Source: a bacterium (GTDB lineage Bacteria > Verrucomicrobiota > Verrucomicrobiia > Verrucomicrobiales > Akkermansiaceae). Taken from it: a DNA stretch of 64,000 nt. The notes under the pieces were generated by a model that made no database searches, was not told where the DNA came from, and saw only the letters and a program-made list of their open reading frames with translations. Below, in pieces: positions 3,001 through 34,868 of the stretch (position 1 is the stretch's first letter; each line of letters opens with the position of its first letter). Both the position numbers and the translations under genes were made by a program. Location of the stretch: contig JAAEZT010000017.1 in the NCBI GenBank assembly GCA_018222765.1, forward strand, positions 1 through 64,000. The letters are read 5' to 3'.

Positions 3001-3533
3001 CCTACGATGACAAGTCACCATGGCCGGAAAGCCCGGACGGTGACGGTTTCAGTCTTACTTTGATTGATCCCGGTGGGGATCCTGATCACGCCGATCCATT
3101 TAGCTGGCGCGCGAGTGTTTCGATTGGTGGATCTCCGACGGGGTCCGATGCCAGCTCCTTTAGCGGGAATGCTCTCGACGATCTTGATGGAGACGGATTG
3201 AGGGCGCTCATTGAATATCTTTTGGGAACCTCTGACACGGTGCCTTCCGGCGCTGCTGGTCCAACAGTTACCGCACAAAACCTAATTGTTGATACGGTTG
3301 CTGGTGACTACCTCACAATGACTGTCGTGCTCGATCTCTCGGCGGACGATGTCGAATATCAGGTCGAAATAACCGACGACCTTGCAGTTTGGGAATCTGG
3401 CTCGGGTCATGTGGAGCATGTCAGTAGCACCAATAATGGCGATGGCACCCTCACCGTGGTATACCGTAGTGCTGATCCGATTGTGGCAGGGAGTCAGGAG
3501 TATTTCCGTCTGAGGGTGATTTCCCGTTCCTAG
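1..3533 (+). CDS. Giant secreted protein with Ig-like (TTTYTL) segment, lamin-tail domain, chitobiase-like domain, CotH kinase-like domain, second chitobiase-like and lamin-tail domains; 5'-truncated by window edge (paralogue A)
   Basis: The frame is open from position 3 (GTSIQLDWSTLNVTALDLNGSNVTGTTSLTVNP...) through the listed TTG at 87 to the stop at 3533, so the real start is outside the window. Motifs: STDWIELHNP, IRYTTDGSAPTTTTGTLYTGP, ARSYASGTWSALNEATF, FYAHDAEHS. Confidence 0.85.
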   Translation, partial: GTSIQLDWSTLNVTALDLNGSNVTGTTSLTVNPTTTTTYTLSATNGQGVITSQLTVTVIIPGEPVINEVSATNQSILLDEDGESTDWIELHNPSGATAILNDYYLSDDPSLPTKWRLPNMNLAPGGFLMIFASGKDRAVAGSELHTNFSLQAGGEYLALSKVDGGVTTFLSEFNPYPNQFEDISWGYFPDGNTLGYFTTPTPASTNLIGAIDYVRDTSFSLNRGFYTAPISVAISSNTPSVDIRYTTDGSAPTTTTGTLYTGPIGISSTTVLRAIAYRTGYLPTNVDTNTYIFLDDVVTQSETAPPGWPASGTFNGQLYNYGMDSDIVNSANSAIGGVQEVKDALSAIPSISISLKQDDFSGSSGIFSNPGNRGIAWERPASAELIFPTGYIDPDGNLEGFQVDAGLRVRGGFSRSGSNPKHALRLFFRAEYGDSKLRFPIFGDEGVDEFDNLDLRTSQNYSWAFQNDPNRNTFLREVFSRDTQRDMGQPYTRSRYYHVYINGIYWGLYMTQERAEASYAETYFGGDKANYDTVKSAGSSGGYTNEATDGNLNAWQDIFNMGRNLVDPGFVNKRAEYYKMQGLDSNGVRDTNLPVLIDMDNLIDFMLVTFWVGNFDAPLSNFLGNDRPNNFFSLRDRTNNDKGFAFYAHDAEHSLFSGWDRTGPFNSSNRAVFAYSNPQFLHEDLLQNLDSFSRNEYFMAWADRTHKALFNDGVLTTASATARINSRASIVDQVIVAESARWGDAKGANPPHDRNDWIGAKNSLLSIAGGRNSTVLGQLVADGLYPTLGAPGFSQHGGHISSVTPLTITNASGDIYYTTDGSDPRLIGGGIHTSATLYTGPLLLTTTSPVRARSYASGTWSALNEATFIVDAVVANSSNLVVSEIHYRPAAPTPAEEDAGFLERSDFEFIEVMNIGPNEVDMTNVRFTDGVEFDFDNSLQGITLAPGQRFILVSNIDAFQIRHPGVSSNLIAGEFSGSLSNGGEQITLQASDNSVVRGFTYDDKSPWPESPDGDGFSLTLIDPGGDPDHADPFSWRASVSIGGSPTGSDASSFSGNALDDLDGDGLRALIEYLLGTSDTVPSGAAGPTVTAQNLIVDTVAGDYLTMTVVLDLSADDVEYQVEITDDLAVWESGSGHVEHVSSTNNGDGTLTVVYRSADPIVAGSQEYFRLRVISRS

Positions 3534-9798: not shown

Positions 9799-10003
9799 AA
9801 AAGCCGTTCATTTTCTGAACCTGTGTAAAAGCACGACTTTTGCATGGATTCAGGAGAGAACTACGGGACATTAATGTTAACTTCCTTATCGAAAAGAAGC
9901 GGATCAAGGGTTAGTTTTTATTGTGGGCAACGAAAGTGGACATTTAGGCTATTTCCGGAAAAAATTCGGCAAGTCGGAGCTGAACCGGAAGTCCAATCGT
10001 TGC

Positions 10004-17354: not shown

Positions 17355-17621
17355 ATGAAGACATCGGCGACTCTTTTTGGGAATAATAAAGGTTGGGCTG
17401 AGAAAATGGAGATCAAGGAGGATGAATTGAACGCTTTGTGGAGTAAAGAAAGGCTCAACCGGCTCTGTGAATTGAATTTTTTGGCTCAAGCTAGTAATGT
17501 GAGTCGAACCAATATTATCAGGGATGCCTGGTCCGGCGGGCAGGATTTGAGTGTCCACAGCTGAATATACGGGTTGAGTTACGGAAGGCTCCAAGAGTTA
17601 GCTGATCCGCTTACGTCGTGA
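17355..17621 (+). pseudogene. Beta-carbonic anhydrase remnant: internal deletion plus in-frame TGA
   Basis: LFGNNKGWAEKMEIKED (N-terminal type) joined directly to ERLNRLCELNFLAQASNVSRTNIIRDAWSGGQDLSVHS*IYGLSYGRLQELADPLTS (C-terminal type). Zinc-ligand motifs CxDSR and HxxC absent. Confidence 0.75.
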
Positions 17622-17665
17622 AGCGGGTCTTGCCAAAAGAGGCGTAATCGAGTGATATTCCTGAC

Positions 17666-18169
17666 GTGAGCGATACACAACAGCCCCTGGTGGGAGTGGT
17701 CATGGGAAGTGATTCCGATTGGCCGACGATGGAAAAAGCGGTGGAGGTTCTCGAGGAATTCGGAGTTCCTTATGAAACCAAGGTCGTGAGTGCGCATCGG
17801 ACTCCAGAATTGTTGGTGCAATATTCCAAGACTGCGCAGGACCGTGGACTGAAAGTGATTATTGCCGGGGCCGGAGGGGCAGCGCACTTGCCGGGAATGG
17901 TGGCCTCGATGACGATTTTACCCGTATTGGGAGTTCCGGTGAAGTCCCGGGCGCTGAGTGGAATGGATTCGCTTTTGTCGATCGTGCAGATGCCGAAAGG
18001 GATCCCGGTGGCGACTTTCGCGATTGGTGAGGCCGGAGCGGGGAATGCCGGGCTTTCGGCGGTATCGATTTTGGCAACCTCGGACGCGGGACTTGCAGAG
18101 AAGTTGCAAGAGTTTCGCGACAATCAACGTGACACGGTCCTTGGAAAAGTTCTTCCTCCTCAAGATTGA
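17666..18169 (+). CDS. purE: 5-(carboxyamino)imidazole ribonucleotide mutase
   Basis: [42 protein letters not shown] start. Confidence 0.96.
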
Positions 18170-19287
18170 TGACGCTTGGAATTCTCGGTGGCGGACAACT
18201 CGCCCGCATGCTTTGTCTCGATGCCCGCCGGATGGGGTTTCGAACGGTTGTCTGGAGTGGCACCCCGACGGCGGAGCCGACCGAGGGAGTAGCCGATGTT
18301 CTCATCAAGAAGGGGTTTGATGATGATGTTGCCCGTGCCGAGTTTTGCGGACAGGTTGATGTGGCGACGGTGGAGTTTGAAAATATTCCACTGAAGACCC
18401 TGAAAGCGGTGGAGGAAGAAATTGAACTTTATCCCTCGGCTGAAAGTATTGGCGTGAGTCAGCATCGTTCGCGGGAGAAGGCTTTTTTGCGGGAACATGA
18501 GATTCCCTGCGCGCCATTTGCACTCGTGAATTCGCTGGAAGATCTGGAGAGGGCTTATGCAGAGGTCGGGCCGGTGGGCGTCTTGAAAACGGCGGCGTTT
18601 GGCTATGACGGCAAGGGGCAGGTGAAGCTTACGGGAGCGGAACAACTTTCCGAGGCCTGGCAAAGTGTCGAGGGACAGCCGTCGGTGCTGGAAGGCTTTG
18701 TGGATTTTCAATGTGAGATTTCCGTTTTGGTGGCTCGTGATGCCGAGGGGAAGAGTTTGGCATTTCCTCCGGTGGAGAATCAGCATCGTCATCACATGCT
18801 GGATCTCACAATTGCGCCGGCGCGGGTGTCCGATGTGATTCTCGATGATGCCAAGACGATTGCGATCAAGCTGGCGGAAGCGATGGGGTATCGTGGGCTC
18901 TTGGCGGTGGAGTTTTTTGTGGAAAAGTCAGGTCGCGTCATTGTGAATGAAATGGCACCGCGACCGCATAACTCGGGGCACTTTTCGATGAACGGGAGCG
19001 TTACTTCTCAGTTTGAACAACAGCTTCGGGCGGTATGTGGATTGCCCTTGGGATCAACGGAATTACATGGCGAGACTGTGATGGTGAATCTTCTCGGGGA
19101 TATGTGGCGGGGGGAACCGCGTGAGTTGGATACAGCCGCAATTTTTGAGACGGAGGGTGCGAAGCTGCATCTATACGGCAAGAGCGACCCGGGGGAGCGT
19201 CGTAAGATGGGACATTTGAATTTGGTGGGTGGCGAGGGGGTGCTGGAGCGAGCGATTCGGTTGAAGCTCCGTTTGTTGGGGGCATGA
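18166..19287 (+). CDS. purK: 5-(carboxyamino)imidazole ribonucleotide synthase
   Basis: [22 protein letters not shown] ... [13 protein letters not shown]; overlaps purE stop (ATGA). Confidence 0.96.
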
Positions 19288-19353
19288 TTTTTTCCGGGCT
19301 GGAACTCGGCGTTTCCTGAAGAGCATTTCCGTGCGCCTTGGCTTGCGGTTGGA

Positions 19354-20124
19354 GTGAATTGCATTGAAGGTGGCTGCGTGGGAAATCACGGGAAAAAGAA
19401 AGCGCGGCGGCGGAAGCATCAGCCGATGGGACTGGAGATTCTTCATGAGGATCGCGATATCATTGTGGTGAATAAGGCGGCGGGTTTGCTGACCATGGGG
19501 ACCGGGCGCGATGGCGGCAGGACCGCGCATGCGGCATTGGATGATTATGTGAAGAAGGGGAATCACAAATCGCGGGAGAGGATCTTTATTGTGCATCGCT
19601 TGGACCGCGATACCTCGGGTGCTTTGGTTTTTGCTCGAACGGAGAGTGCAAAGGAGACGCTTCAGAAAAATTGGGAGGAGGCAAAGAAGACCTACCTCGC
19701 TTTTGTGGAAGGTCACCCGGCTCCGAAGGAGGGAAAGATTTCAAGTTATCTGGCTGAAAATGAAGCCCGTCGGGTTTACTCGACGAAGGATAAACGGAAA
19801 GGGCGTCTGTCCCATACGGAATACAAAGTGCTCAAGGAAGTGGGAGCGAGGGCCTTGTTGGAGATCACTCTACTAACAGGTCGGAAGAATCAGATCCGGG
19901 TTCACTTGGCGGATAAAGGATGGCCTATTGTGGGGGACGGGAAATACGGCAAGAAGATCCGCGATAATAAGCGTCTCGCGCTGCACTCGCATACCTTAAG
20001 TTTTGATCATCCTTTTCGGGGGGAGCGAATGATATTCGAAGCGCCCGTGCCGAATACCTTTCATAAGATGGCAGCGGCACCACAGCCGGAGGAAAATTCG
20101 AAAAAGCAGCGCAATGTCGATTAG
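19354..20124 (+). CDS. RluA-family pseudouridine synthase
   Basis: HEDRDIIVVNKAAGLLTM ... IVHRLDRDTSGALVFARTE ... TGRKNQIRVHLA. Start may be 19426. Confidence 0.9.
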   Translation: MNCIEGGCVGNHGKKKARRRKHQPMGLEILHEDRDIIVVNKAAGLLTMGTGRDGGRTAHAALDDYVKKGNHKSRERIFIVHRLDRDTSGALVFARTESAKETLQKNWEEAKKTYLAFVEGHPAPKEGKISSYLAENEARRVYSTKDKRKGRLSHTEYKVLKEVGARALLEITLLTGRKNQIRVHLADKGWPIVGDGKYGKKIRDNKRLALHSHTLSFDHPFRGERMIFEAPVPNTFHKMAAAPQPEENSKKQRNVD

Positions 20125-20215: not shown

Positions 20216-21643
20216 TTGTCGGGGGTGAGAAAGTTTCATTTCCTGACGGTCATGTCGCGAGTAAAGACGATTGCCCGTTGGTTGGCGCCGGTGTCGGCGT
20301 TGGTGATTTTTGGGATTGCGGATTTTTCCGGAATGGAACGACAGGCGGCGGTGACGCTGGGGATTGCCTGGTTGACGGCGACGTGGTGGATGACGGAGGC
20401 AGTTCCGATTCCGGTAGCTTCGCTGGTTCCGATTGCCTTGCTTCCTTTATTTGGAGTTTTGCCTGCAAAGACAGCGGTGGCGCAGAGTTACGGGCATCCC
20501 TTGGTGCTTTTATTACTGGGTGGGTTTTTGCTTTCGAAGGGAATGGAAAAGAGCGGAGTACATCGTCGCATTGCACTGGGAATGGTGCGGGCTTGTGGCG
20601 GCAGTGGCGGGAAGGGGTTGATTCTCGGGTTTATGTTGGCCTCGGCCACGTTGAGTATGTGGATTTCAAATACTGCAACGACCTTGATGCTGCTCCCGAT
20701 TGCATTGGCGGTGTTGAGTGGGTCGAAGGACTCGGCGAAGTTGGCTGCTCCGCTCATGATGGGCGTGGCGTATGCAGCGAATATCGGTGGATTGGGGACG
20801 CCAATCGGAACCCCTCCAAATTTGGTGTTTATTGAGCAGTATCAAGAACTGACGGGGAAGGCGATGAGTTTCATGGAGTGGATGAGTTACGGTGTTCCCA
20901 TTGTGATCATCATGATTCCGTTGATGTGGCTTTGGTTGAGTCGGAGTCTCAAGGGTGGGGAGAAAATTGAGCTTCCTGAAAGTGGTGCCTGGCGTGCAGA
21001 GGAGAAGAGAACCTTGATTGTTTTTGGGCTGACGGCCTTGGCGTGGATGACTCGGTCTGAGCCTTTTGGGGGCTGGAAAACCTGGCTGAATCTTCCGGGA
21101 GCCAATGATGCTTCGGTAGCTTTCATCGGAGTGATCTTGTTGTTCCTGATTCCGGATGGATCGGGCAGAGTTGGAGAGAAAGGGCGTTTGTTGGATTGGG
21201 AGACGGCGCAGAAGATTCCGTGGGGAATGCTTCTCTTGTTTAGTGGAGGAATTTGTCTGGCTTCAGGGATCAAGAGTTCCGGCCTGAGCGGGCAGGCGGC
21301 GTCCTTGTTGAGTGGAGTGGGGACCTTGCATATTTTGGGAATGATTTTTGCGATTTGCCTTTTGATGACCTTCCTCACCGAGTTGACGAGTAATACCGCG
21401 AGCACAATTTTGATGATGCCGATTTTGGGGTCGGTGGCCTTGTCCAATGATCTTGATCCCAAATTCCTGATGCTTCCGGCGGCTTTGAGTGCCAGTTGTG
21501 CTTTTATGTTGCCAGTGGCAACGGCTCCGAATGCAGTAGTCTTCGGGTCGGGCTATCTCACTGTGCCCAAGATGGTACGGGAAGGAATTGTTCTGAATTT
21601 GATCGGAGTGGCGGTGGTAAGTCTCTACTGTTGGTTGCGATGA
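20216..21643 (+). CDS. SLC13/DASS family divalent anion:sodium symporter
   Basis: Hydrophobic, LLGGFLLSKGMEKSG, MWISNTATTLMLLPIALA, LTELTSNTASTILMMPILG, LPVATAPNAVVFGSGYL. Confidence 0.88.
   Translation: MSGVRKFHFLTVMSRVKTIARWLAPVSALVIFGIADFSGMERQAAVTLGIAWLTATWWMTEAVPIPVASLVPIALLPLFGVLPAKTAVAQSYGHPLVLLLLGGFLLSKGMEKSGVHRRIALGMVRACGGSGGKGLILGFMLASATLSMWISNTATTLMLLPIALAVLSGSKDSAKLAAPLMMGVAYAANIGGLGTPIGTPPNLVFIEQYQELTGKAMSFMEWMSYGVPIVIIMIPLMWLWLSRSLKGGEKIELPESGAWRAEEKRTLIVFGLTALAWMTRSEPFGGWKTWLNLPGANDASVAFIGVILLFLIPDGSGRVGEKGRLLDWETAQKIPWGMLLLFSGGICLASGIKSSGLSGQAASLLSGVGTLHILGMIFAICLLMTFLTELTSNTASTILMMPILGSVALSNDLDPKFLMLPAALSASCAFMLPVATAPNAVVFGSGYLTVPKMVREGIVLNLIGVAVVSLYCWLR
21583..21643 (+). 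repeat. Left copy of 61-bp imperfect direct repeat (3' end of SLC13 gene)
   Basis: aggaattgttctgaatttgatcggagtg... ending cgATGA; ungapped match to 28248-28308. Confidence 0.8.
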
Positions 21644-24600
21644 ATGTGGTGAAGAAAAAATCGCGCTTTTGCCGCATTTGGGAGGTGTTGCTTCTCCTTT
21701 TGTTGTTTCCTTGTTTTGCGGGGGCGCAGTTGCGACTGACTGAGTTTTTGGCGGATAGCGATGGATCGTATCCCGACAGCGATGGTGAGCCATCGGATTG
21801 GATTGAGATTCATAACCCGGGAAATTCTCCAATTTCCACCGACGGGCTGTTTCTGACGGATGATTTTTCGAATCTAACGAAGTGGATGCTGCCCGATGTT
21901 TCCATTGAGGGTGGCGGGTATCTTGTCGTTTTTGCTTCGGGGAAAGACCGTCGGGACCCGGCAGAGGAGCTGCATACCAATTTTTCCTTATCGAGCGGTG
22001 GCGAGTATTTGGGTCTGATCGCTGCTGACGGGAGTTCGCCGATTAGTCAATTCAGCCCGGTATATCCCCGGCAGTTTTATGGCGTTGCTTTCGGAACAGG
22101 AACGAATGCAATCTCGGAACCTGAGACATTTGTTCCGTGGCCGTCATCGGGGACCTGGATTGTTCCGCTCGCTGATATTGGAGATTCCTGGCAGGAAGTT
22201 GGCTTTGATGACGGGGGCTGGAATTCTGCGCAAACTGGAATTGGTTACGGGTATTCCTTTCCGGGATTCATCGGTGCGGGTGGAGATACGCGAGATGCGA
22301 TGCAAGGGAAGGCCGGGAGTGCGTATGTGCGGGTTCCATTCCAAATCAATGATCCTGCCGAGGTGGTGAGTATGACGCTCGATCTATTTTATGAAGATGG
22401 ATTCGCAGCGTATCTTAATGGGGAATTGGTTTCCTCGGCAAATTTGCCTGCGGATCTCAGCTACGATTCGGTTGCGACGAATCGGGGGGAGGTTCGCGAG
22501 GGCGATGAGATGGAGAGTTTTGAAATCGACTTTTCGGGGAAGCTATTGAGTGGCGAAAACTTACTAGCATTCCAGGTGTTGAACGACATCAAGGAGAGTT
22601 CGGATGTTTTGTTGGTTCCGCGTCTCAAGGGAGAAATACGCGATCTTTCCGGAGGGATTATTGGAGGGTATTTGGCTTCGCCTACGCCGGGCACTCCGAA
22701 CGCGGATATCGAGTTTGTTGATTTTGTGAGTGATACGACTTTCGATGTTGATCGTGGTTTTTTTGAGTCGCCATTCATTACCACGATCGAATGCGGAACG
22801 CCGGGAGCTCTCATTATTTATACGTTGGATGGGAGTACACCGACACTCGAGAACGGTATACAAGTGCCGGTTTCCGATCCAGATTCGGCGTCCTTGGCAG
22901 CGGTGAATATTAACACGAGTACGGTTTTACGTGCGGCTGCTTTCAAAAACGGGCTCAGACCATCGAATGTTGATACGCAAACTTATCTCTTTTTGGATGA
23001 TGTGTTGGATCAGCCTGCACAGCCGCCGGGTTATCCGCTGCCGTGGCGGCAACGTAATGGGAACAGTATCCCAGGTGATTTTGAAATGGATCCTGAGATC
23101 GTTGGGCCGGTATACAGCCGCGAAGAATTGAAGGAATCCCTGCGGGATATCCCGACAGTTTCAATTGTTACCGATATTGCGAATCTTTTCGATCAACAGA
23201 CGGGAATTCAAGTAAATCCACAAGACTCCGGTCCCAGTTCAGAGCGGCGGGTTTCGGTGGAATTGATGGATTTCAAGGATGGTGCACCCATTCAGTTAGA
23301 CGCTGGAATGTTGATGAACGGGAATGCTTCGAGAAACCCGGGGCGGGGGAAGCACAATTTCCGGCTCGCTTTTCGTAATCGATATGGTGCCGGGAAATTG
23401 AACTTCCCCTTATTTGGCGAAGGGGCGGCCACCGATACCTTTAATCAGATCATCCTGCGGGGAGGGAACGGCAACGGATGGTTTCACCCGACTTCGGCGG
23501 TGCGGCAGTATGCGATGTATATCCGGGATCAGTGGTTTCGTGATGCCCACACCGCAATGGGGTATCCGGAGGCGCTTCAAAACGAGGTGCATGTTTACTT
23601 CAACGGGCTCTACTTTGGGGTGCATCATTTATTCGAACGGATCGAGGAGGAATGGACCGCGGAACGATTTGGCGGAGGTGAAGACGATTGGGAAGGTTTT
23701 CGGATCGTGGGAGGGAACAACATCGAGGTGATCAAAGGAACTCCGGCCGAGGTGAGTTCGCGGATGCTTGATAGTTGGCGGGCGGTGCTTGATGCGGCGG
23801 AGGCAGGGGACCTTGCCACGGTTGAAGAGTATCTCGATTTGGATAGTTTTATCGATTACCTGGTGCTCAATTTTCACGCGGGGAATACCGATTGGGACCA
23901 GAACAATGTTCGAGCGATGCGTCAGTTGAATCCTCCCGGAAAGTATATGTTCTTTTGCCATGATGCCGAACGCGCTGGTCTGAATGGTCTCTCTACCGGA
24001 AATCTTAACATCAATTCCATCACGCATCCTCGCTCAGGTGCCGAACAGCGACCGACCTCGGTCAATGCATGGCTGAAAAGTAATCCGGAGTATGCCTTGC
24101 AGTTCGCCGACCGGGCTTTCAAGCACATGTTCAATGGGGGGGCATTGACTCCTGAAAACGGGATGGCCCAGTGGGACGCGCGTGCGGAGGGAATTCGCAT
24201 TGCCTTGAAGGCTGAGAGCGCGAGGTGGGGGGATCACGTGGACTCAAACCCCCGAACCTTGGTTGATTTTGAAAACGGGCTCAATCGTGAGTATACTACC
24301 TGGTTTCCCAATCGCACCCCGATCAGTATCAGTCAGTTTCGTGCGGCGGGTCTGTATCCTGATATCGATCCTCCGGTTTTCAGCCAGCATGGAGGGAGTG
24401 TTTCGGAGGGCTTTGGGCTGACGATTACAAACGAAGCGGGGGATATTTACTATACGGTTGATGGGAGTGATCCGCGTTTGCCTGGAGGAGGGATCGGGCC
24501 GAGTGCCGTCAAGATTGATGGCACAAAGAACGAGCTTGTTCTTCTCGGTGCAGGTGCTCCTGGATGGAGTTACCTTGATGATGGCAGTGACCAAGGAAGT

Positions 24601-25971
24601 GCCTGGAAGGAGCCTGCTTTTAACGATGAGGCCTGGCCGGTCGGAGATGCTCCGTTGGGTTATGGCACGATCAATTTTCATCCCTTTGGAGGTCCGGAAA
24701 TTAATGTGGATAGAAATCTCACCGTTTACTTTCGAAAAGAAGTCGAGTTGGCTAATATCAATCTCATCACTGAAGCGAGGGCGCGTGTGATGTCGGATGG
24801 AGGTGCCATCGTTTACCTGAATGGCACCGAAATCGCCCGCGACAATATGCGGGGTGATCCCGTGGACTATCTCACGACTGCTCTGAGTGATAGCAATGTG
24901 GCAGAGGGGAATATTGACGTTTTCAATTTTCCGCCATCGGCTTTTGTGGAGGGCACGAATGTGATCGCGGTCGAGCTTCACAATGGAAGTGTGGGAAGTT
25001 CCGATATGGGAATGGATTTGCAGATTGATGTGACCAGCCTGAGCTCTCCGGGAGACGCGATAACGATCAATTCGGCGACAACGGTTTTGGCCCGGAGTTT
25101 CGATGGCGATGACTGGAGTGCGCTCAACCAAGCGACCTTTGTCACAGCTCTCCCGGCCTCGGCTGCTAATCTTGTGATATCCGAGATCTTTTACAATCCG
25201 GCGGGCCAGTTTGAGACCAGCGAGTATATTGAGCTTATGAATATTGGTCCGGTTCCAATTAGTCTCGCAGGTGTTGTTTTTTCAAGAGGGATCACATTCG
25301 CGTTTCCAGATGAGGCAGTTCTAGCTCCAGGGGCGCGTTTGTTGCTTGTGGCCGATCTTGCTGGTTTCGAGAGTGCTTTTGGCGCGGACCTTCCGGTGGC
25401 CGGCATCTACACGGGGCGGCTGGATAATGGTGGTGAAGATTTGTTGCTGAGTGGTTCCAATGGAGATCCGATCCAGAGTTTTCGCTATGATGATGGAGAT
25501 CTCTGGTCTCAAAATGCCGATGGTGAGGGGTACTCGTTGACCTTGATCGCTCCCTCTTCTAGGCCTGATCCAGGCAATGCCACAAGTTGGCGGTCGAGTC
25601 TTGATTTAGGAGGAAGTCCGGGTGCCTCTGATGCCTTGATTTTCACCGGCACCACTTCAAATGATTTCCTGTCTTATGCCCTGACCGATCCATTTGGAGG
25701 AATTTCAGCCTCGATTCAGAGTCTTGAAGTGAATGGGGCGGTCGATGACTATCTGGTGACTGCTGTTTCCGCGAATACTGGTGCGGATGATGCGGAGATC
25801 TCGGTTGAATTCTCAGCTGATTTGGAAACCTGGCTGAGTGGTGCGGCCGTGTTTTTGGGATCTGACGAGCGGGTTAATGGAATGAGTATTCACCATTGGC
25901 GGGCCCCGACCTCAAGTGCCGCCAGCTCCCCATTTCGCTTCGCTCGGGTGGTATTGGTGGCGAGGCCATAG
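21640..25971 (+). CDS. Giant secreted LTD/CotH-kinase-like protein (paralogue C)
   Basis: ATG at 21640 overlaps the transporter TGA (ATGA) and opens a signal peptide (MNVVKKKSRFCRIWEVLLLLLLFPCFAGAQ). SDWIEIHNPG, IIYTLDGSTP, GNTDWDQNN, CHDAE, IYYTVDGSDPRLPGG. Confidence 0.87.
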   Translation: MNVVKKKSRFCRIWEVLLLLLLFPCFAGAQLRLTEFLADSDGSYPDSDGEPSDWIEIHNPGNSPISTDGLFLTDDFSNLTKWMLPDVSIEGGGYLVVFASGKDRRDPAEELHTNFSLSSGGEYLGLIAADGSSPISQFSPVYPRQFYGVAFGTGTNAISEPETFVPWPSSGTWIVPLADIGDSWQEVGFDDGGWNSAQTGIGYGYSFPGFIGAGGDTRDAMQGKAGSAYVRVPFQINDPAEVVSMTLDLFYEDGFAAYLNGELVSSANLPADLSYDSVATNRGEVREGDEMESFEIDFSGKLLSGENLLAFQVLNDIKESSDVLLVPRLKGEIRDLSGGIIGGYLASPTPGTPNADIEFVDFVSDTTFDVDRGFFESPFITTIECGTPGALIIYTLDGSTPTLENGIQVPVSDPDSASLAAVNINTSTVLRAAAFKNGLRPSNVDTQTYLFLDDVLDQPAQPPGYPLPWRQRNGNSIPGDFEMDPEIVGPVYSREELKESLRDIPTVSIVTDIANLFDQQTGIQVNPQDSGPSSERRVSVELMDFKDGAPIQLDAGMLMNGNASRNPGRGKHNFRLAFRNRYGAGKLNFPLFGEGAATDTFNQIILRGGNGNGWFHPTSAVRQYAMYIRDQWFRDAHTAMGYPEALQNEVHVYFNGLYFGVHHLFERIEEEWTAERFGGGEDDWEGFRIVGGNNIEVIKGTPAEVSSRMLDSWRAVLDAAEAGDLATVEEYLDLDSFIDYLVLNFHAGNTDWDQNNVRAMRQLNPPGKYMFFCHDAERAGLNGLSTGNLNINSITHPRSGAEQRPTSVNAWLKSNPEYALQFADRAFKHMFNGGALTPENGMAQWDARAEGIRIALKAESARWGDHVDSNPRTLVDFENGLNREYTTWFPNRTPISISQFRAAGLYPDIDPPVFSQHGGSVSEGFGLTITNEAGDIYYTVDGSDPRLPGGGIGPSAVKIDGTKNELVLLGAGAPGWSYLDDGSDQGSAWKEPAFNDEAWPVGDAPLGYGTINFHPFGGPEINVDRNLTVYFRKEVELANINLITEARARVMSDGGAIVYLNGTEIARDNMRGDPVDYLTTALSDSNVAEGNIDVFNFPPSAFVEGTNVIAVELHNGSVGSSDMGMDLQIDVTSLSSPGDAITINSATTVLARSFDGDDWSALNQATFVTALPASAANLVISEIFYNPAGQFETSEYIELMNIGPVPISLAGVVFSRGITFAFPDEAVLAPGARLLLVADLAGFESAFGADLPVAGIYTGRLDNGGEDLLLSGSNGDPIQSFRYDDGDLWSQNADGEGYSLTLIAPSSRPDPGNATSWRSSLDLGGSPGASDALIFTGTTSNDFLSYALTDPFGGISASIQSLEVNGAVDDYLVTAVSANTGADDAEISVEFSADLETWLSGAAVFLGSDERVNGMSIHHWRAPTSSAASSPFRFARVVLVARP

Positions 25972-26046
25972 GAGTAGCAACGATTGTGAAAGAAGATTGT
26001 CTCTTTCGCTTTTCACAGGATTAACGCTCTGATAGTCCTGTTTGAT

Positions 26047-28239
26047 ATGAAGTTAGCAAACATTCTTCTCGTTCTGGTGGCCTTGTCTCATCTGGGGCTT
26101 CGCGCGGATTTGGTCGCCCACTGGACTCTTGAGGAAGGAACGGGAGCGACGGCTGGAGATAGCACGGCGAATGGTCGGACCGGGACGATTGCGGGAACGA
26201 CACTTTGGAACACCACTGATCTTCCGCCTGTTCCTACGGGAACCACGGCCGCCCTTGAGATGGACGGAGTCGATGATCAAATCAACATAGTTGGTTACAA
26301 AGGAATTTCCGGAACCGGTGATCGCTCGGTTTCCGCTTGGATCAAGACCGACCTCAACAGCACGTCCCAAGACATGGGCATTGTTTCCTGGGGGAGTAAT
26401 TCGACGACGCAAAAATGGACCTTTCGAATTCAGACTCAAAATGGCACTCCCGGAGCGATTCGCGTCGAAGCCAATGGTGGTTTCTTTGTTGGGAATACCG
26501 TGGTTACGGACACCGAATGGCATCATGTTGCTGTAACTTGGGCAAATGACGGCACTCCAGATATTCAGGATGCTAAGCTCTATGTCGATGGGGTTCTCGA
26601 TGCTGAATTTGGAAGTATCGATTTCCCGCCGAGTGCCAGTCAAAGTGTTGCAATCAACACTGCTGTTGGTTCAGATGTGCGTATCGGGGATGATTTTCAA
26701 TTGACCCACAATTGGCGGGGCGGAATCGATGAGGTACGCATTTACGACGAGGCGTTGGATGCTGCAGCCATTGCAGACCTTGCCATTGGTAATCAGATTC
26801 TTTCGGCACTCGAGGCTTCCGAGGAAGCGGTGGCAAGCGGGGCTCCGGTAGAACTCAGTTGGGCAAGCGATCCTGCAAACGATACTCTGACCATCGACAA
26901 CGGAGTTGGAGATGTTTCAGGGCTGGCAATGATAACGGTCAATCCTACTGCTACCACGACTTATACTCTTACCGGCACCCGAGGGGGAGATACGGAGGAA
27001 CTTCAAGTCACGGTATTGGTCAATGCCGCTCCTCTCATTAACGAGGTCATTAATCTTGGTTCCGAGACTCTGCTTGAGGGGCAATCAACCACGATTTTCT
27101 GGGATGTTTTTGGAGAGGCGGGTCTTAGCATGAACGGTAACAACGTCACCGGGCTTGATCGGATTGAATTATCTCCAACCGAGACTACGACCTACACTTT
27201 CGCGGCGACCAATGCATTCGGGACGACAACCTCGCAATTCACCCTCACCGTGATCGATGGAAACAACCCTGATCTCGGTTGGGAAGTGGCTGAACGGCCG
27301 AACGGAGTGCTCACCCAGTGGGATCCGACAACAAATACCACCGGGAATTTGGGCATCGCCTTCATTAATAGCACGGGTGGCACAGTTCAAAGTGGTGCGA
27401 GTAATTTCTCTTCAATTAGTAAGTGGGTGAATAGTCCGGGCTATAACCTCGCTGCGAATCCCCTCGATTCCTGGCAGGACGGGCTTGGTGATCTCGTGAC
27501 AAAAGAAGATGTGAGTTGGGAAATGGTAGTTCGTCCCGGAGACTTCACCGGAACGCATACTCTCTTCAATACCGGCGGAAATGGTCAGGGATTAGGCATT
27601 GTTCTCACTGCCAGTATACTTGATTTCCGCTTTCAATCTGCGAATAACGCCTCGCAAAGAATCATTATTTCAACCGATCTCTCAGCCATCGGCCTTGCTA
27701 CTGATTTCTTTCATATCGTGGCGACGGCTGATGTTGGAGGGGCGTCTCCTGGCGTGGCCACTCTTTATGTAAATGGCCAACTTGTTGCTGGTCCTACGTC
27801 CAGCACAGGAATTATCGCTGACTGGGATGGGGGAGATCTTGCCGAGCTCGGAAAAGGAGCGAATATTCCAACGAGCACGGCTTTTCCCTTCGAGGCCTTC
27901 ACCGGCGACATCGCGGTCTTTAACTATTACGGATCCCGTGTTCTCAATGCCTCGCAGGTCTCTGATAAGTATGATGCCCTCGGTGGCCCCGGGGGAGATT
28001 TGGCGATCAAGAATATCGAGTATGATGACGCGGCTGACGAGATCAGGCTGACTTTCGATTCCATTCCCAACCAAACCTACGCTCTTGAAACGACGGTTGA
28101 CTTGTCAACAGAGGCTTGGATCGAGCTCGACGATTCGATTTCCTCCGGCGGAACCGAAACCACCATTGTGATTAGCGGAGTTGTTCTGCCTGATCCGGGG
28201 AACCCAAGGCGCTTCTATCGTATCCTCTTGGGGTTGTAG
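26047..28239 (+). CDS. Secreted LamG/concanavalin-like protein with two Ig-like TTTYT repeats and a second LamG-like domain
   Basis: LVAHWTLEEGTGATAGDSTANGRTGTI, ALEMDGVDDQI, VNPTATTTYTLTG, SPTETTTYTFAATN, WHHVAVTWANDGT. Confidence 0.85.
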   Translation: MKLANILLVLVALSHLGLRADLVAHWTLEEGTGATAGDSTANGRTGTIAGTTLWNTTDLPPVPTGTTAALEMDGVDDQINIVGYKGISGTGDRSVSAWIKTDLNSTSQDMGIVSWGSNSTTQKWTFRIQTQNGTPGAIRVEANGGFFVGNTVVTDTEWHHVAVTWANDGTPDIQDAKLYVDGVLDAEFGSIDFPPSASQSVAINTAVGSDVRIGDDFQLTHNWRGGIDEVRIYDEALDAAAIADLAIGNQILSALEASEEAVASGAPVELSWASDPANDTLTIDNGVGDVSGLAMITVNPTATTTYTLTGTRGGDTEELQVTVLVNAAPLINEVINLGSETLLEGQSTTIFWDVFGEAGLSMNGNNVTGLDRIELSPTETTTYTFAATNAFGTTTSQFTLTVIDGNNPDLGWEVAERPNGVLTQWDPTTNTTGNLGIAFINSTGGTVQSGASNFSSISKWVNSPGYNLAANPLDSWQDGLGDLVTKEDVSWEMVVRPGDFTGTHTLFNTGGNGQGLGIVLTASILDFRFQSANNASQRIIISTDLSAIGLATDFFHIVATADVGGASPGVATLYVNGQLVAGPTSSTGIIADWDGGDLAELGKGANIPTSTAFPFEAFTGDIAVFNYYGSRVLNASQVSDKYDALGGPGGDLAIKNIEYDDAADEIRLTFDSIPNQTYALETTVDLSTEAWIELDDSISSGGTETTIVISGVVLPDPGNPRRFYRILLGL

Positions 28240-28247
28240 GGGAGGGC

Positions 28248-28308
28248 AGGAATTGTGCTGAATTTGATCGGAGTGTTCATCGGGAGCCCTTATCGTAGGC
28301 CGCGATGA
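28248..28308 (+). pseudogene. Relic of the C-terminal codons of an SLC13-type transporter, immediately upstream of the TPR-sulfatase; right copy of the 61-bp direct repeat
   Basis: Translates as GIVLNLIGVFIGSPYRRPR* versus GIVLNLIGVAVVSLYCWLR* at the intact transporter; same length and same ATGA overlap. First 28 nt 27/28 identical; about 45/61 overall (hand count). Confidence 0.75.
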
Positions 28309-30347
28309 AGGTTCTGATCTCATTCTTTATTCTGACATGTCTCGTTTCGGCACAGCAAGCTGACGATCTCTATCGACAGGGAGCTGAGAAATTTTTCGCG
28401 GGGAAGGTTAAAGAAGCGATTGTTGATTGGGATCGCGAGATTGCCATGGTTCCTCGTCGTGGCCCGCACCATTGGCAGCGTGGCTTGGCTCTTTATTATG
28501 CCGGTGAGTATGACAAGGGGGTGGCGCAGTTTGTCAGCCATCAGACGGTGAATGGACATGATGTTGAGAATGCGGTGTGGCATTTTCTGTGTGTGGTGCG
28601 CGGGACGGGTGGATCGGTGGAAAAAGCGAGGAAGGATTATATCCCGATCGAGGGAGATTCCCGGGTGCCGATGAGGGAGGTGCATGATTTGTTCGGAGGA
28701 ACCGGCTCGGAAAAAGCTGTGCTTGAGGCAGCGTCGAAGAATGCCGCAGGGCTGAGGTTGAGAAATCAACTTTGCTACGCGCATTTGTATCTCGGGCTTT
28801 ATTACGAGGCGTTGGGTGAGACGGTGAAGTCTGCGGGGCACATGAAGAAGTCTGCGGTGGATTATCGCATGGATCATTACATGGGAATGGTGGCGCAACT
28901 GCATCACAAGCTGCGGTCGCGTCCCAATATCATCTTCCTTTTCGCCGATGATCAACGGGCGGACACGATTGGAGCGCATGGGAATCCCCACATCAAGACT
29001 CCAAATCTCGATGCCCTGGCGGCGGAAGGGATGAGCTTTCGCCAAAACTACTGCGCGGGTTCTTTTAGTGGAGCCGTTTGTGTGGCGAGTCGAGCGATGT
29101 TGATGACGGGGCGTCATTGGATGAGTTTGCCGGAAAAGAGGCCTCAGACGAATTGGGGTGATTCGGTGGTGCTTCCGGCTCACCTGGAGAATGAGGGCGG
29201 GTATCAATCCTACATCGTAGGTAAGTGGCACAATGGAAAGGGAACTTTGGATAAGTCGTTTCATGGTGGAAAGGCGATCTACATGGGGGGAATGGCGGAT
29301 CACACCTCGTTTCAGGTGCAGGATCTTGAGGGGGGAAAGCTCATGCCGAAACGTGATGCGGGAGGATTCTCGAGCACCGTTTTTGCGGATGCTGCAATTG
29401 AGTTCATTGAAAACGCGAATGGGGAGAAACCTTTCTTTCTCTACGTGGCCTTCATGGCTCCACATGATCCGAGAAACCCACCCGAGAAATATCGCGAGAT
29501 TTACTATAAAAATCGTCCACCGCTCCCACCGAATTATTTGCCCCAACATCCCTTTCAGAATGCTCCTGCGTCGACATCAGGTCGTGATGAGGGGTTGGGA
29601 CCATGGCCGAGAACCAAAGAAGTCATTAGTGATCAACTCTGCGAGTATTATGGTCTGGTGACGCACCTAGACGAGCAGGTCGGACGGATCATGAGGGCTC
29701 TTAAAGGAACTCCCCATGCCGACAATACTTACGTAGTTTATACCGCTGACCATGGTTTGGCGATGGGGAGCCATGGTTTGCTTGGTAAGCAGAATGTCTA
29801 CGAGCAGAGCATGAAGTGCCCGCTGATCATCAAAGGTCCGGGCATTCCGAAAGGGAAGTCAACTGAAGCGATGACCTATGTGCATGATCTCAATGCTACG
29901 GTATGCGGATTTTCGAAGACCTCGATTCCGGAGAAGAGTGATGCCCGGGATTTGGGACCGTTAATTCGCGGGGAGATTGAGAAAGTCCACGAGGAGGTTT
30001 TTTTGCCCTTTCAGAATAACCAGCGCACGGTCCGTGATGAACGATGGAAGTTGCATGTCTACCCCTTGATCAATCATCGCCTTCTGTTTGACCTGAAAGA
30101 GGATCCCCACGAAACGAACAATCTCGCGGAGAAGCCGGAGCACTCGGGAAAACTGAGGGAAATGATGGCGATGATGGAAAAGAACCGAAAATCCCACGGT
30201 GACCGCTATCCGCTCTCAGTGGAAAATCCCAAACCCAAGGAGGCAATTTACGATAATGCCAAGCGGACTTTGGACATTTGGCAGCCAAAGTGGATTCGCG
30301 ACAAGTATTTCGGCGGGCGGAGTCGGACCAATCACGGGAAGAAGTGA
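28305..30347 (+). CDS. Secreted TPR domain-sulfatase fusion (CVASR)
   Basis: N-terminal TPR-like repeats (DDLYRQGAEKFFAGKVKEAIVDWDREIAMVP; HHWQRGLALYYAGEYDKGVAQF), then SRPNIIFLFADDQRADTIGAHGN and VCVASRAMLMTGR. Confidence 0.88.
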   Translation: MKVLISFFILTCLVSAQQADDLYRQGAEKFFAGKVKEAIVDWDREIAMVPRRGPHHWQRGLALYYAGEYDKGVAQFVSHQTVNGHDVENAVWHFLCVVRGTGGSVEKARKDYIPIEGDSRVPMREVHDLFGGTGSEKAVLEAASKNAAGLRLRNQLCYAHLYLGLYYEALGETVKSAGHMKKSAVDYRMDHYMGMVAQLHHKLRSRPNIIFLFADDQRADTIGAHGNPHIKTPNLDALAAEGMSFRQNYCAGSFSGAVCVASRAMLMTGRHWMSLPEKRPQTNWGDSVVLPAHLENEGGYQSYIVGKWHNGKGTLDKSFHGGKAIYMGGMADHTSFQVQDLEGGKLMPKRDAGGFSSTVFADAAIEFIENANGEKPFFLYVAFMAPHDPRNPPEKYREIYYKNRPPLPPNYLPQHPFQNAPASTSGRDEGLGPWPRTKEVISDQLCEYYGLVTHLDEQVGRIMRALKGTPHADNTYVVYTADHGLAMGSHGLLGKQNVYEQSMKCPLIIKGPGIPKGKSTEAMTYVHDLNATVCGFSKTSIPEKSDARDLGPLIRGEIEKVHEEVFLPFQNNQRTVRDERWKLHVYPLINHRLLFDLKEDPHETNNLAEKPEHSGKLREMMAMMEKNRKSHGDRYPLSVENPKPKEAIYDNAKRTLDIWQPKWIRDKYFGGRSRTNHGKK

Positions 30348-30402
30348 GAACACCGGACTCCCGGTATCGACAGGGCGTCTGTGAATGGGCATTCTTACGG
30401 GG

Positions 30403-32013
30403 ATGAATGAATGGTTTTCCTACGTCGATCTGGCGGTCTTGATTGGCTATCTTGTAATCACAACGGTGATTGGCCACTACATGAGCGGGAAACAGTCGAC
30501 GATCTCAGATTTTTTTGCAGGAGGGAAATCGCTGCCTTGGTGGGCGGTTTGTGGGTCGATCATTGCTACCGAGATCAGCGGGGTGACCTTCATTGGAGTC
30601 CCGGGCGGGGTTTTGGCGGCCAGCGGGAACTTTACCTACATGCTTTGGGGGATTGGTTCCATCATGGGACGGGTTGTTGTGGGAATGGTCTTTGTGAAGG
30701 TCTTTTACGAAGATGAAATCTACAGTCCCTATGACTATATGGGGCGTCGCATTAAGCCTGAGCTCAAGAAGTTGGCCACCGTCTTTTTCACAATTGGCTC
30801 GATCCTAGGACAGAGTGTGCGGGTTTTGGTAGCGGCGATTCCATTGAGAGTGGTGACGGGCTTGGGATTCGAGGAATGTATTTTGATTATTGGGCTTTTC
30901 GCCATCGCCTGGACCCTAATGGGAGGAATGAGAACGGTGATCTGGACCGATGTGATGCAATTCGGCCTATTTGCCGTGGGAGGATTGGTCACTTTGCTGT
31001 GGATCACCAATTCCATCGATGAAGGGTGGAGTGCTCTTTGGGAAGTGGCCAGAGATGGGGGGAAGACCAAAATGTGGAATGGAGAATTTGGTTTGTCGCA
31101 GCAATTCCAGTTCACCTTCTGGGTCGCGATCATCGCCGTGCCATTTCAGAATCTTACAGCCTTCGGGGTCGACCAATTGAATGCGCAGCGGATGTTTTGT
31201 TGCCGGAATGCAAGCGATGCAAAAAAAGCCATCATCTGGAGCTCTTTGGGACAAGCTCTTACCTATTTGATGCTCCTGGTGGGAGCGGCTCTTTTTGCGT
31301 TTTATTACATGAACCCTCCGGAGGGGGATGTGGCGGCCAAGTTGGCATTTAAGAGTGGTGGTGAGTTAACCACTCTTGCTCAAGGAGGCACGCCTGTGAA
31401 ACCCGATATGGTCTTTCCAATTTGGATTGTGACCGAGTTGCCTCAAGGTCTCAAAGGTTTGATCCTTGCCGGGGTCTTTGCGGCGGCGATTTCGAGTCTG
31501 GATTCCATTCTTGCGGCTCTGAGCCAGACCACAATTTCTCTCCTCTATCATCCTGAAAATAATCCCTCCCTCAATCAGACGGTTCTGGTGAAGAAGTCAA
31601 GGCAATGGGTTGTGATCTGGGGCGTGTTGCTGACTGGGTTTACTTTCCTGATGAGCTATGTGCAAAGCTCCCTGAAAATCAATGTGTTACCTCTAGCTTT
31701 TGGTATGACTAGTTACACCATGGGGCCCTTGTTAGGAATGTTTCTATGTGCCTTGATTGGTAAGGGGTGTTTCCGGGGAATACTCATTGGAGCGATCATT
31801 TCCTTTTTGATGACGATGTTCTTGAGGATGGACGTTTGGATTCTGTTCGAAAAAGCAGGCATGAATATTCAATGGTTGGCAAATCTACCGTCTTATTATC
31901 TATCTGAAAGTGGTGATGTTAAAATGTCGATAGCATCACATTGGATGTGGCCTGTTGGTACTATTTTAACCTTCTTTGGAGGACAGATTGGAGCCCGTGT
32001 GAAGGGTGATTAA
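30403..32013 (+). CDS. Sodium:solute symporter (SSS family)
   Basis: VIGHYMSGKQSTISDFFAGGKSLPWWAVCGSIIATEISGVTFIGVPG; about 13 hydrophobic segments. Alternative start at 30385. Confidence 0.9.
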   Translation: MNEWFSYVDLAVLIGYLVITTVIGHYMSGKQSTISDFFAGGKSLPWWAVCGSIIATEISGVTFIGVPGGVLAASGNFTYMLWGIGSIMGRVVVGMVFVKVFYEDEIYSPYDYMGRRIKPELKKLATVFFTIGSILGQSVRVLVAAIPLRVVTGLGFEECILIIGLFAIAWTLMGGMRTVIWTDVMQFGLFAVGGLVTLLWITNSIDEGWSALWEVARDGGKTKMWNGEFGLSQQFQFTFWVAIIAVPFQNLTAFGVDQLNAQRMFCCRNASDAKKAIIWSSLGQALTYLMLLVGAALFAFYYMNPPEGDVAAKLAFKSGGELTTLAQGGTPVKPDMVFPIWIVTELPQGLKGLILAGVFAAAISSLDSILAALSQTTISLLYHPENNPSLNQTVLVKKSRQWVVIWGVLLTGFTFLMSYVQSSLKINVLPLAFGMTSYTMGPLLGMFLCALIGKGCFRGILIGAIISFLMTMFLRMDVWILFEKAGMNIQWLANLPSYYLSESGDVKMSIASHWMWPVGTILTFFGGQIGARVKGD

Positions 32014-32229
32014 GAAGGCTTAAAAAATTGCGGGGGGATAAAAAAATTTCAAAAAAACGTGGAACACCCGTGGAAAAAAATGAGAGCAACTATGAATATT
32101 TTTTTTACCCAAAAATGGTTCCCAAAATAGGCCTGATCACAGCATGATCTCCGCATCGAAGCGGCAGCCCCCGACCCTATTCGATCTAATTAAATTTTGG
32201 CAATAACCCCAATCAATAGATCACAAATA
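32014..32229. other. Candidate replication-origin region upstream of dnaA
   Basis: AT-rich runs, two CGTGGAA direct repeats 11 bp apart (32058, 32069), four GATC sites at 32135, 32146, 32183, 32219, adjacent to dnaA-dnaN. No consensus DnaA box cluster seen. Confidence 0.35.
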
Positions 32230-33684
32230 ATGACGACTCATGCAGGAGGAGAAAATGATTATGACTCAGACAATTCAAACAACAACCCCGCGAGCGGCGA
32301 CTTGCAGACCTGGGAAAAGGTCAAGGCAAAACTCAGCGAGTATTTAAGTGCCGATGCATTCACGCGTTGGTTCAAAAACGCCGAGCTTATTGAGACAGGT
32401 GGAGAAGAAGGTGTCATCGGCGTGCAGTCGGACATGCAGCAGATCTGGATCGAGACGAATTACTTAGACGAACTCCGTGCTGCTTTCGCTGAGGGGGCTG
32501 GTATTCACTGCACTCCTCGAGTGACGGTGTTTGGTCAAGAGGTTATTACTCAACCACAAAAGCCCTCAAAAATAGCCGCTAGAGGTCCGGGCAAGGGCAG
32601 CAGCCAAGTCAAGGTGGTCGCACCTGATGAGAAGAACCCCGCCTTTGAGCGGCGTCTCAAAAAGATGGGCATCAATCCGGAATTCGATTTTGCGAGCTTT
32701 GTAGTTGGTGACAATAGCCAGTTCGCTCACGCAGCCTGTTCCGCAGTGGCCCATCGTGAAGGACGGAGCTTCAATCCACTCTTCATTCATGGGCGGGCCG
32801 GACTTGGAAAAACCCACCTGATGTCGGCGATTGCCCAGCAATTGTTGATTAACGACCCGAAGGCCAAGATTGTCTTTTTGACAGCGGAGCAATTTGCCAA
32901 TGAGTTCATTGAGGCTGTTCGGAAAGGGAATCTCGATGCCTTCCGGAAATCCTACCGCAGTGCCGATGTCATGCTCATTGATGATATTCAGTTCCTGGCG
33001 GGGAAAGAGCGGACACAGGACGAATTCTTCCACACTTTCAGCACCCTTCTTAATACCCAGACCCAGGTGGTTCTTACCTGTGACTGTCCGGCACCGGAAA
33101 TCCAGACTTTGGAGCCCCGCCTGGTCAGTCGTTTTGAAAGCGGTCTCACTGTGGAGCTCCAGCCTCCGGGCTTTGAAACCCGCGTGGCGATTCTTCGCCG
33201 CAAGATGGAGCAGTGGAACGTGCAGCTCGAGAACGGCGTGGTGTGCCACATCGCCAATCTCATCAAGAGTAACGTGCGCCGCCTCGAGGGGGCACTGACC
33301 CGCGTGGCTAGCTACAGTTTCCTCTCATCCGAGGAAATGACCATCTCCAAGACCGATGATCTCCTAGGAGATCTGATTCGGGACGAAAATACCCAGCAGA
33401 TCACGGTTGATCAAATCCAGAAAATGGTGGTGGATTACTATGATCTCAACCTCTCGGATATGAGCAGTCGTCGCCGCCCCAGCAGCATTGCCTTCCCTCG
33501 ACAGGTGGCGATGTTCCTCTCCCGAAAGCTTACCAAGCTCTCATTAGTGGAAATTGGGGAGTGTTTTGGCCGCCGGGATCACGGAACCGTCATCCACGCC
33601 TGTAAGAAGGTGAATCACGAGATGGAACTCAATCCCGACGTAAAAGGGGGCGTTGAGAAGCTGATTGCAGCTCTGCAGCGCTAA
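32230..33684 (+). CDS. dnaA: Chromosomal replication initiator protein DnaA
   Basis: NPLFIHGRAGLGKTHLMSAIAQQ, DVMLIDDIQFLAGKERTQDEFFHTF, C-terminal FGRRDHGTVIHACKKV. Confidence 0.96.
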   Translation: MTTHAGGENDYDSDNSNNNPASGDLQTWEKVKAKLSEYLSADAFTRWFKNAELIETGGEEGVIGVQSDMQQIWIETNYLDELRAAFAEGAGIHCTPRVTVFGQEVITQPQKPSKIAARGPGKGSSQVKVVAPDEKNPAFERRLKKMGINPEFDFASFVVGDNSQFAHAACSAVAHREGRSFNPLFIHGRAGLGKTHLMSAIAQQLLINDPKAKIVFLTAEQFANEFIEAVRKGNLDAFRKSYRSADVMLIDDIQFLAGKERTQDEFFHTFSTLLNTQTQVVLTCDCPAPEIQTLEPRLVSRFESGLTVELQPPGFETRVAILRRKMEQWNVQLENGVVCHIANLIKSNVRRLEGALTRVASYSFLSSEEMTISKTDDLLGDLIRDENTQQITVDQIQKMVVDYYDLNLSDMSSRRRPSSIAFPRQVAMFLSRKLTKLSLVEIGECFGRRDHGTVIHACKKVNHEMELNPDVKGGVEKLIAALQR

Positions 33685-33770
33685 ATACTACTCGATTGTG
33701 AAGGAAATACTCTTGCCAAGGCGAGATGAGGTGGGCAGCCTCAATTCAGCCCGCAGGGGCGTTTTTATTT

Positions 33771-34868
33771 ATGAAGTTTCGCATCTCTAAGGAGGCTTTT
33801 TTGGATGGGCTGCAGCAAGTGCAGCATGTGGTGAGCACCCGCACTACACTTCCTATTCTCTCAAACGTTCTCATCGAGGCCGATGACGAAGGTCTACGTC
33901 TCACGACGACAGATCTCGATGTCGGAGTCAGTGGGGTAGTGAAAGCCGAGGTTTCCAAGCCCGGGTCTACCACGCTGCCGGTGAAACGCTTGGCGAATAT
34001 CATTCGTGAACTGCCTTCAGCTGAGATTGAAGTTTCGGTTGATGGAAAGAATATTGCCTCGATCAAAAGCGGCCCCTCATTCTTTAAAATCATCGGTCTT
34101 CCCGATAATGAATTTCCACCGCTGGCCGACTTCCACGATGCCAAGGAATATAAGATCTCGCAGGCGCTTCTGCGCAATGGCCTTAAGAAAACTTCTTATG
34201 CGATTTCGACTGACGAAACCCGCTACGTGCTCAACGGAATCTTCACTTCCTTTAAGGAGGGTAAATTGACTCTCGTTGCCACCGATGGTCGGCGCTTGGC
34301 GATGGTGGAAAATGACTTGGAGTTTCCGTCCAGCCACGAGACCGATTTCATCGTGCCAACCAAGGCGATTCAGGAACTTCAGCGTCACATTGGCACCGAG
34401 GGGGACATCATGCTCCGCCTCTCCGACAATCAAGTGTGTTTCGAAGTGGGTAGCTCGATCATCGTGAGCAAGCTTATCGAAGGAAATTACCCGAATTACC
34501 GTCAGGTCATTCCTGGCGAGTCGAAAGAACGCCTCACGCTGAGCCGCGAGCAACTTCTCGAAACGACCCGCCGGGTCTCTCTCCTTTCCTCTGAAAAGTC
34601 CAACTCGGTTAAAATGACCTTCGGACTGAACCAAGTCGATGTCATGGCAAATAGCCCGGACATCGGTGAGGCGAATGAGTCGATCGAGGTGAAGTATGAG
34701 GGCAAAGAATTCTCTATCGCCTTCAACCCTGAATTCCTAATGGCCCCCTTGAAGAGCCTGGAGGAAGAATTTGTGCATCTCGATCTCATCGATGAAATGA
34801 GCCCGGGGGTTCTTCGCACCGAAGATGCTTTCCTCTACGTGCTCATGCCGATGCGCGTGACTTCGTAA
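33771..34868 (+). CDS. dnaN: DNA polymerase III subunit beta
   Basis: MKFRISKEAFLDGLQQVQHVVSTRTTLPILSNVLIEA ... C-terminal DAFLYVLMPMRVTS. Confidence 0.96.
   Translation: MKFRISKEAFLDGLQQVQHVVSTRTTLPILSNVLIEADDEGLRLTTTDLDVGVSGVVKAEVSKPGSTTLPVKRLANIIRELPSAEIEVSVDGKNIASIKSGPSFFKIIGLPDNEFPPLADFHDAKEYKISQALLRNGLKKTSYAISTDETRYVLNGIFTSFKEGKLTLVATDGRRLAMVENDLEFPSSHETDFIVPTKAIQELQRHIGTEGDIMLRLSDNQVCFEVGSSIIVSKLIEGNYPNYRQVIPGESKERLTLSREQLLETTRRVSLLSSEKSNSVKMTFGLNQVDVMANSPDIGEANESIEVKYEGKEFSIAFNPEFLMAPLKSLEEEFVHLDLIDEMSPGVLRTEDAFLYVLMPMRVTS

Follow-up and report, generated by a model that had tools for sequence, protein, structure and literature searches.

Repeated transporter gene end on both sides of a CotH-LamG gene pair in an Akkermansiaceae genome, a probable insertion at a former SLC13-sulfatase junction

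In an Akkermansiaceae genome (GenBank assembly GCA_018222765.1), the end of an SLC13-type transporter gene is found twice, once where it belongs and once beyond two further genes, directly before a sulfatase gene. How the second copy came to stand there is the question raised by this locus. The window, meaning the whole stretch of DNA that was analyzed, comprises 64,000 nucleotides of contig JAAEZT010000017.1 (C46 in our contig numbering), and on its + strand the genes are ordered pseudouridine synthase, SLC13 transporter, CotH, LamG, TPR-sulfatase, and sodium:solute symporter, followed by dnaA and dnaN. The features are:

19354..20124, + strand: pseudouridine synthase, left-hand landmark outside the proposed event
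20252..21643, + strand: SLC13/DASS-type transporter (Pfam Na_sulph_symp, CitMHS, E 3.4e-64)
21583..21643, + strand: intact copy of the repeated transporter end, its TGA overlapping the CotH ATG (ATGA)
21640..25971, + strand: CotH gene, product probably secreted, with CotH kinase, lamin-tail, Fn3-associated, and CHB_HEX_C_1 domains
26047..28239, + strand: LamG gene, Laminin_G_3 in two stretches, single copy in the genome
28244..28308, + strand: relic copy of the transporter end, from 4 nt past the LamG stop to the sulfatase start (ATGA)
28255..28308, + strand: possible 17-codon leader frame within the relic, with a GTG start, overlapping the sulfatase start
28305..30347, + strand: TPR-sulfatase fusion (sulfatase PF00884 + SGSH_C)
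30385..32013, + strand: sodium:solute symporter, right-hand landmark outside the proposed event, conserved upstream of dnaA-dnaN

A gene end in two places

The last 61 nt of the transporter gene (21583-21643) recur ungapped at 28248-28308, with 27/28 matches over the first 28 nt and 45/61 over the whole, and the coordinates, counts, and translations given in the original prediction are all correct. The repeat can be extended, still ungapped, to 21579-21652 and 28244-28317 (73% over 74 nt), and its core is 30/32 identical with no element genes alongside. Both copies end in cgATGA, as had also been claimed, so that a transporter-type stop overlaps the ATG of CotH at 21640 and that of the sulfatase at 28305. 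Homologous direct copies of 61 nt in the same orientation therefore immediately flank the CotH-LamG insert on both sides, and the borders are tight, with the pair opening at the shared ATG and the relic starting just past the LamG stop. In the window the similarity perhaps continues 9-13 nt beyond ATGA into both genes, less clearly so in the relative G008 (below); such an extension might imply that CotH acquired its start as a copy of the sulfatase start, although it is too short for that to be claimed.

In fixed register, a 61-nt match of this quality has a chance probability of about 4e-15. When a 201-nt query from the transporter end was searched against its own genome (4.33 Mb, 87 contigs), it matched itself and 28244-28275 only (E 7.7e-7), which answers the proviso of the original prediction that the match might be a common genome-wide repeat, and that explanation is ruled out. 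An assembly artefact is likewise ruled out, as the repeat structure is present in three metagenome-assembled genomes (MAGs), namely that of the window and two more. A self-comparison of 1.4 Mb of loci found direct repeats of similar score elsewhere; the score alone is thus no argument for a relic, whereas the register and the homology are.

Several observations concern the surroundings of the repeat. The block of symporter, dnaA, and dnaN (30385-34868) is conserved in the genus and lies directly downstream of the run, so the rearrangement may neighbor the replication origin. The TPR-sulfatase has the appearance of a fusion that occurs in the genus of the window; its TPR part is a gene of its own in G005, G006, and G033 (64-73% identical), its sulfatase part occurs alone (about 70%) in many Verrucomicrobiota and Planctomycetes, and the fusion is present twice in G013. 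The CotH/lamin-tail/Fn3-associated family has 19 matches at E <= 1e-90 in the genome of the window and 10 to 18 in many relatives, with examples in the window at 87-3533, 9923-14263, and 21640-25971. A promoter scan yielded 7 sites against 8.5 expected, which is the level of shuffled sequence, and terminator-like sites were modestly above expectation; neither was used.

The second copy in related species

Two further MAGs, G008 (Akkermansiaceae MAG JAQWZU010000043, the nearest named relative at the locus) and G004, have the same relic copy. The full arrangement is present on contig C209 of G008 (SLC13 at 26241-27629, sulfatase at 17537-19576) and, as far as its short contig reaches, in G004. 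The relics translate, each up to a stop, as GIVMNLIGVFIASLYCRPR in G008, GIVMNLIGVFIASLYHRPR in G004, and GIVLNLIGVFIGSPYRRPR in the window, with G008 and G004 sharing the reading GIVMNLIGVFIASLY(C/H)RPR before the stop, and the working SLC13 genes end in GIVLNLIGVAVVSLYCWLR in the window, GIVLNLIGVVVVSLYCWLR in G008, and GIVLNLIGVIVVSLYCWLR in G156, a member of another genus of the family. Set against the pattern of the SLC13 ends, GIVLNLIGVxVVSLYCWLR followed by a stop, the protein reading of the G008 relic indicates that the whole 61 nt is a decaying transporter end, homologous over its full length. The second half, which in the window matches at 14/27 positions (P 0.003), matches at 16/27 before ATGA in the G008 copy (P 2e-4), where ...SLYC.. 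is still legible, and at 54/61 columns one base is common to the copies and the SLC13 ends of the window, G008, and G156.

Its presence in three species indicates that the relic arose before G000 (the genome of the window), G008, and G004 split, and that the event is old. Between the relic and the working ends of its clade there are 14-17/61 differences (44-47/61 match), whereas the working ends of the window and G008 differ at 3/61, and those of the window clade and G156 at 8-10/61 (51-53/61 match). Divergence is strongly unequal between the first 30 nt of the relic and the last 27 nt. The original prediction read the divergent second half as a sign of either an old event or recombination between two different loci, and the first of these stands; the second is possible but not needed, since the G008 copy is nearer to the transporter protein than the window copy, and change of both copies after the duplication can explain the second half. 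At several sites, e.g., CTTTATTGT, the relic agrees with G156 where the working end of the window clade differs, so part of the difference is change in the working gene.

The transporter gene itself has a separate history. The SLC13 protein of G156 (C34:12692-14080) is 90% identical to that of the window, other same-genus orthologues are at most 76% identical, and in a tree the G156 protein groups with the window clade (support 89/98), all of which indicates transfer of SLC13 between genera. DNA similarity between G156 and the window covers little beyond the gene and stops at its stop codon. A G156-like gene was considered as donor of the relic and set aside, 61 nt being too few to decide. The relic shares its TGA stop with the window clade (TAA in G156), which would fit copying after the G156 lineage had split off; one base decides little.

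Histories that could place a transporter end before the sulfatase

In other genomes of the genus, the transporter, the CotH-LamG pair, and the TPR-sulfatase are common but lie at separate loci or on different contigs. CotH and LamG are side by side in G021, G002, G014, G006, G023, and G025, for example between DUF1592-DUF1552 and cytochrome-type genes in G021, or between PNPase and a PhoD-like gene in G006; in G014, G016, G019, and G023, a sulfatase follows the pair on the other strand. These differing surroundings identify the pair as a unit that changes place within the genus, and the lack of a second close copy of LamG in G000 implies that it was relocated, not copied. No duplication flanks the pair in five other genomes of the genus, so flanking copies are no general feature of such pairs. 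Inspection of other such pairs and their borders had been proposed, and it bore out that the pair is separable. In G014 (L158, 16385-16984), only the last third of a DUF1552 gene (residues 394-590, 80%) precedes the pair; the same gene is whole in G021 and nearly whole in G023, and the G014 remnant is another decayed upstream neighbor of the pair.

A direct SLC13-sulfatase junction was found in none of 27 genomes of the genus or 260 of the family, no SLC13 end precedes the sulfatase in the upstream regions of 11 same-genus sulfatase loci, and no SLC13 gene lies near the sulfatase within flanks of up to 10 kb at other named GTDB loci. The synteny comparison thus came out in two ways: the predicted adjacency of transporter and sulfatase did not appear (0/260 family genomes), and the relic is absent where the pair lies elsewhere, as was expected. 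The relic is consequently the one trace of a former coupling. In the sister genome G017 (about 95% nucleotide identity), the SLC13 start and the sulfatase end stand on separate contigs, one breaking off inside SLC13 and the other at the sulfatase end, which is compatible with either presence or absence of the pair; on C95 (L171, about 1-60), SLC13 similarity is lost at about window position 20466 and gives way to ~60 nt of unrelated, AT-richer contig end, which may be an artefact of the contig end or else an insertion into SLC13. In G073, the side of the query toward the sulfatase start had a match (E 0.001), which was set aside because no related genes lie there.

The probable explanation, in our assessment, is that the CotH-LamG pair was inserted at an old SLC13-sulfatase ATGA junction, with duplication of the transporter end. 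The exact register with both start codons, the relic in three species, the separable pair, and the relic-free relatives support it. In the ancestor of the clade, SLC13 and the TPR-sulfatase would have been adjacent, overlapping by ATGA. The pair, as a relocating two-gene unit, would then have entered this junction, and the last 61-74 nt of the transporter would have been duplicated, one copy either side of the insert, through staggered-break repair, template switching, or recombination between two copies. The copy before CotH would have remained a functional gene end, and the copy before the sulfatase, no longer coding, would have decayed, above all in its second half. Three elements of this account are our inference: that SLC13 and the sulfatase were once direct neighbors, in what sequence the events took place, and by what mechanism the end was copied. 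The uneven decay of the relic is contrary to what simple uniform decay predicts and is a point against it. Of the insertion as originally proposed, the relic, the separable pair, and the age of the event are upheld, while the former direct coupling is read from the relic; the accompanying argument that release and uptake of sulfate make transporter and sulfatase a sensible pair is weak, as the two are unlinked in other genomes.

Alternatively, the sulfatase may have arrived second, moving from a different SLC13-sulfatase locus (a paralogous or a foreign one) with the end of its old neighbor attached and landing behind LamG in an existing SLC13-CotH-LamG run. SLC13 does move between genera (90% identity to G156 against at most 76% within the genus), the sulfatase has its own separate locus in relatives, and the relic is somewhat nearer to the G156 SLC13 end (48-50/61) than to those of its own clade. 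This closeness does not discriminate, however, as the working SLC13 end of the window clade is about equally far from G156, and the relic has the TGA stop of the window clade and not the TAA of G156. Such a history would also require another SLC13-sulfatase locus, none of which was found, and the coincidence of a donor tail landing in a run already headed by SLC13. We regard it as unlikely; a past transporter-sulfatase junction somewhere is needed by this history and by the insertion of the CotH-LamG pair alike.

Possible use in translation, and likeness to known systems

The relic appears to change more slowly than neutral sites, although the sites are few (p about 0.01-0.03). Among the three species, 6/57 of its sites vary against 292/1274 four-fold sites (Fisher p 0.033; one-sided binomial 0.014), and 2/30 vary in its first 30 nt (p 0.020); in the gap between CotH and LamG, 17/75 vary. 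In G008 and G004, an ATG six bases past AGGA begins a frame of 16 codons whose end falls on the sulfatase start. Two neighboring bases are different in the window, where a 17-codon frame may begin at a GTG one codon earlier, preceded by GGGGAGGG. The sulfatase ATG itself is preceded only by a weak AGG, with no strong Shine-Dalgarno (SD) sequence. Following the insertion of the CotH-LamG pair, the leftover transporter tail might have been kept and remodeled into a ribosome-loading leader for the sulfatase, its start codon preceded by an SD-like sequence; what is left of the relic at its 5′ side would then act as a short coupled leader, a further step that is doubtful. A clear SD is absent from many genes in the window, so a leader may be unnecessary. 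RNA structure was set aside, the folding of the relic region being unremarkable (z -1.67).

The same data could be read as a small duplication selected from the outset as a ribosome-loading leader for the sulfatase, with no earlier SLC13-sulfatase adjacency. The below-neutral change, above all in the first 30 nt, the SD-like AGGA/GGAG before the GTG (window) or ATG (G008 and G004) of a frame of 16-17 codons running over the sulfatase ATG, and the missing strong SD directly before that ATG would agree with it, as would termination-reinitiation across ATGA overlaps, which is documented for overlapping genes (PMC6728339). The sample of 57 sites is small, though, the genes without a clear SD and the unremarkable folding weigh here as well, and the end of a neighboring gene in stop/start register would be left unexplained. 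We consider this origin improbable.

Islands that enter the 3′ ends of genes restore the gene end on one side and leave the displaced end on the other. An integrative element could by such a route have entered the SLC13 3′ end, supplied a new end, displaced the old one, and later lost its integrase, leaving an att-like scar, and the geometry (a near-identical core, a divergent remainder, restored and displaced gene ends) is that of 3′-end islands. No integrase, recombinase, or other mobility gene was found in or beside the insert, however, the three Phage_integrase matches of the genome all lying on other contigs; the insert consists of two ORFs with almost no spare DNA, and the five other CotH-LamG pairs of the genus lack a flanking duplication. 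This origin is very improbable. A literature search on gene remnants from integrative elements gave no useful result. Chance similarity, for which the weak second half of the window copy might speak, is refuted by G008 and G004, where the copy is kept with residues nearer to the transporter, in addition to the register probability and genome-wide E-value given above, and its likelihood is negligible.

If the CotH-LamG pair was inserted as proposed, the scar would record the rebuilding of an operon in a marine Akkermansiaceae group, in which a two-gene unit came between probably coupled genes, together with the fate of the severed junction, and the three species would form a small time series of relic change. 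Should the leader idea hold, a gene end would have been reused as a translational coupling device; should it fail, the rearrangement would be an ordinary, well-documented one.

Among known systems, insertions with target duplication, through staggered-break repair or template switching, likewise leave direct, same-orientation copies of the target flanking the insert, but here a mobility gene is absent, the insert comprises two full ORFs and hardly any spacer, and the target duplications of IS elements are far shorter than the 61-74 nt of this locus. Islands and phages in the 3′ ends of protein-coding genes also have a gene end at the gene and a second copy with a near-identical core at the far border, whereas integrase and element genes are absent here and other CotH-LamG pairs lack flanking repeats. 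As in gene pairs coupled by termination-reinitiation at ATGA (PMC6728339, PMC10666635), CotH and the sulfatase each begin at an ATGA shared with an SLC13 end; at the sulfatase, however, the upstream frame is the relic, of at most 17-19 codons. The sulfatase-rich genomes of marine Verrucomicrobiota (PMC8857213) resemble this locus in combining sulfatase, lectin-type LamG domains, and transporters within a single run, whereas the present run has no glycoside hydrolase, and its linkage is specific to the window clade. Set beside these systems, the case is a readable rearrangement and a good example, not a new class of element or system.
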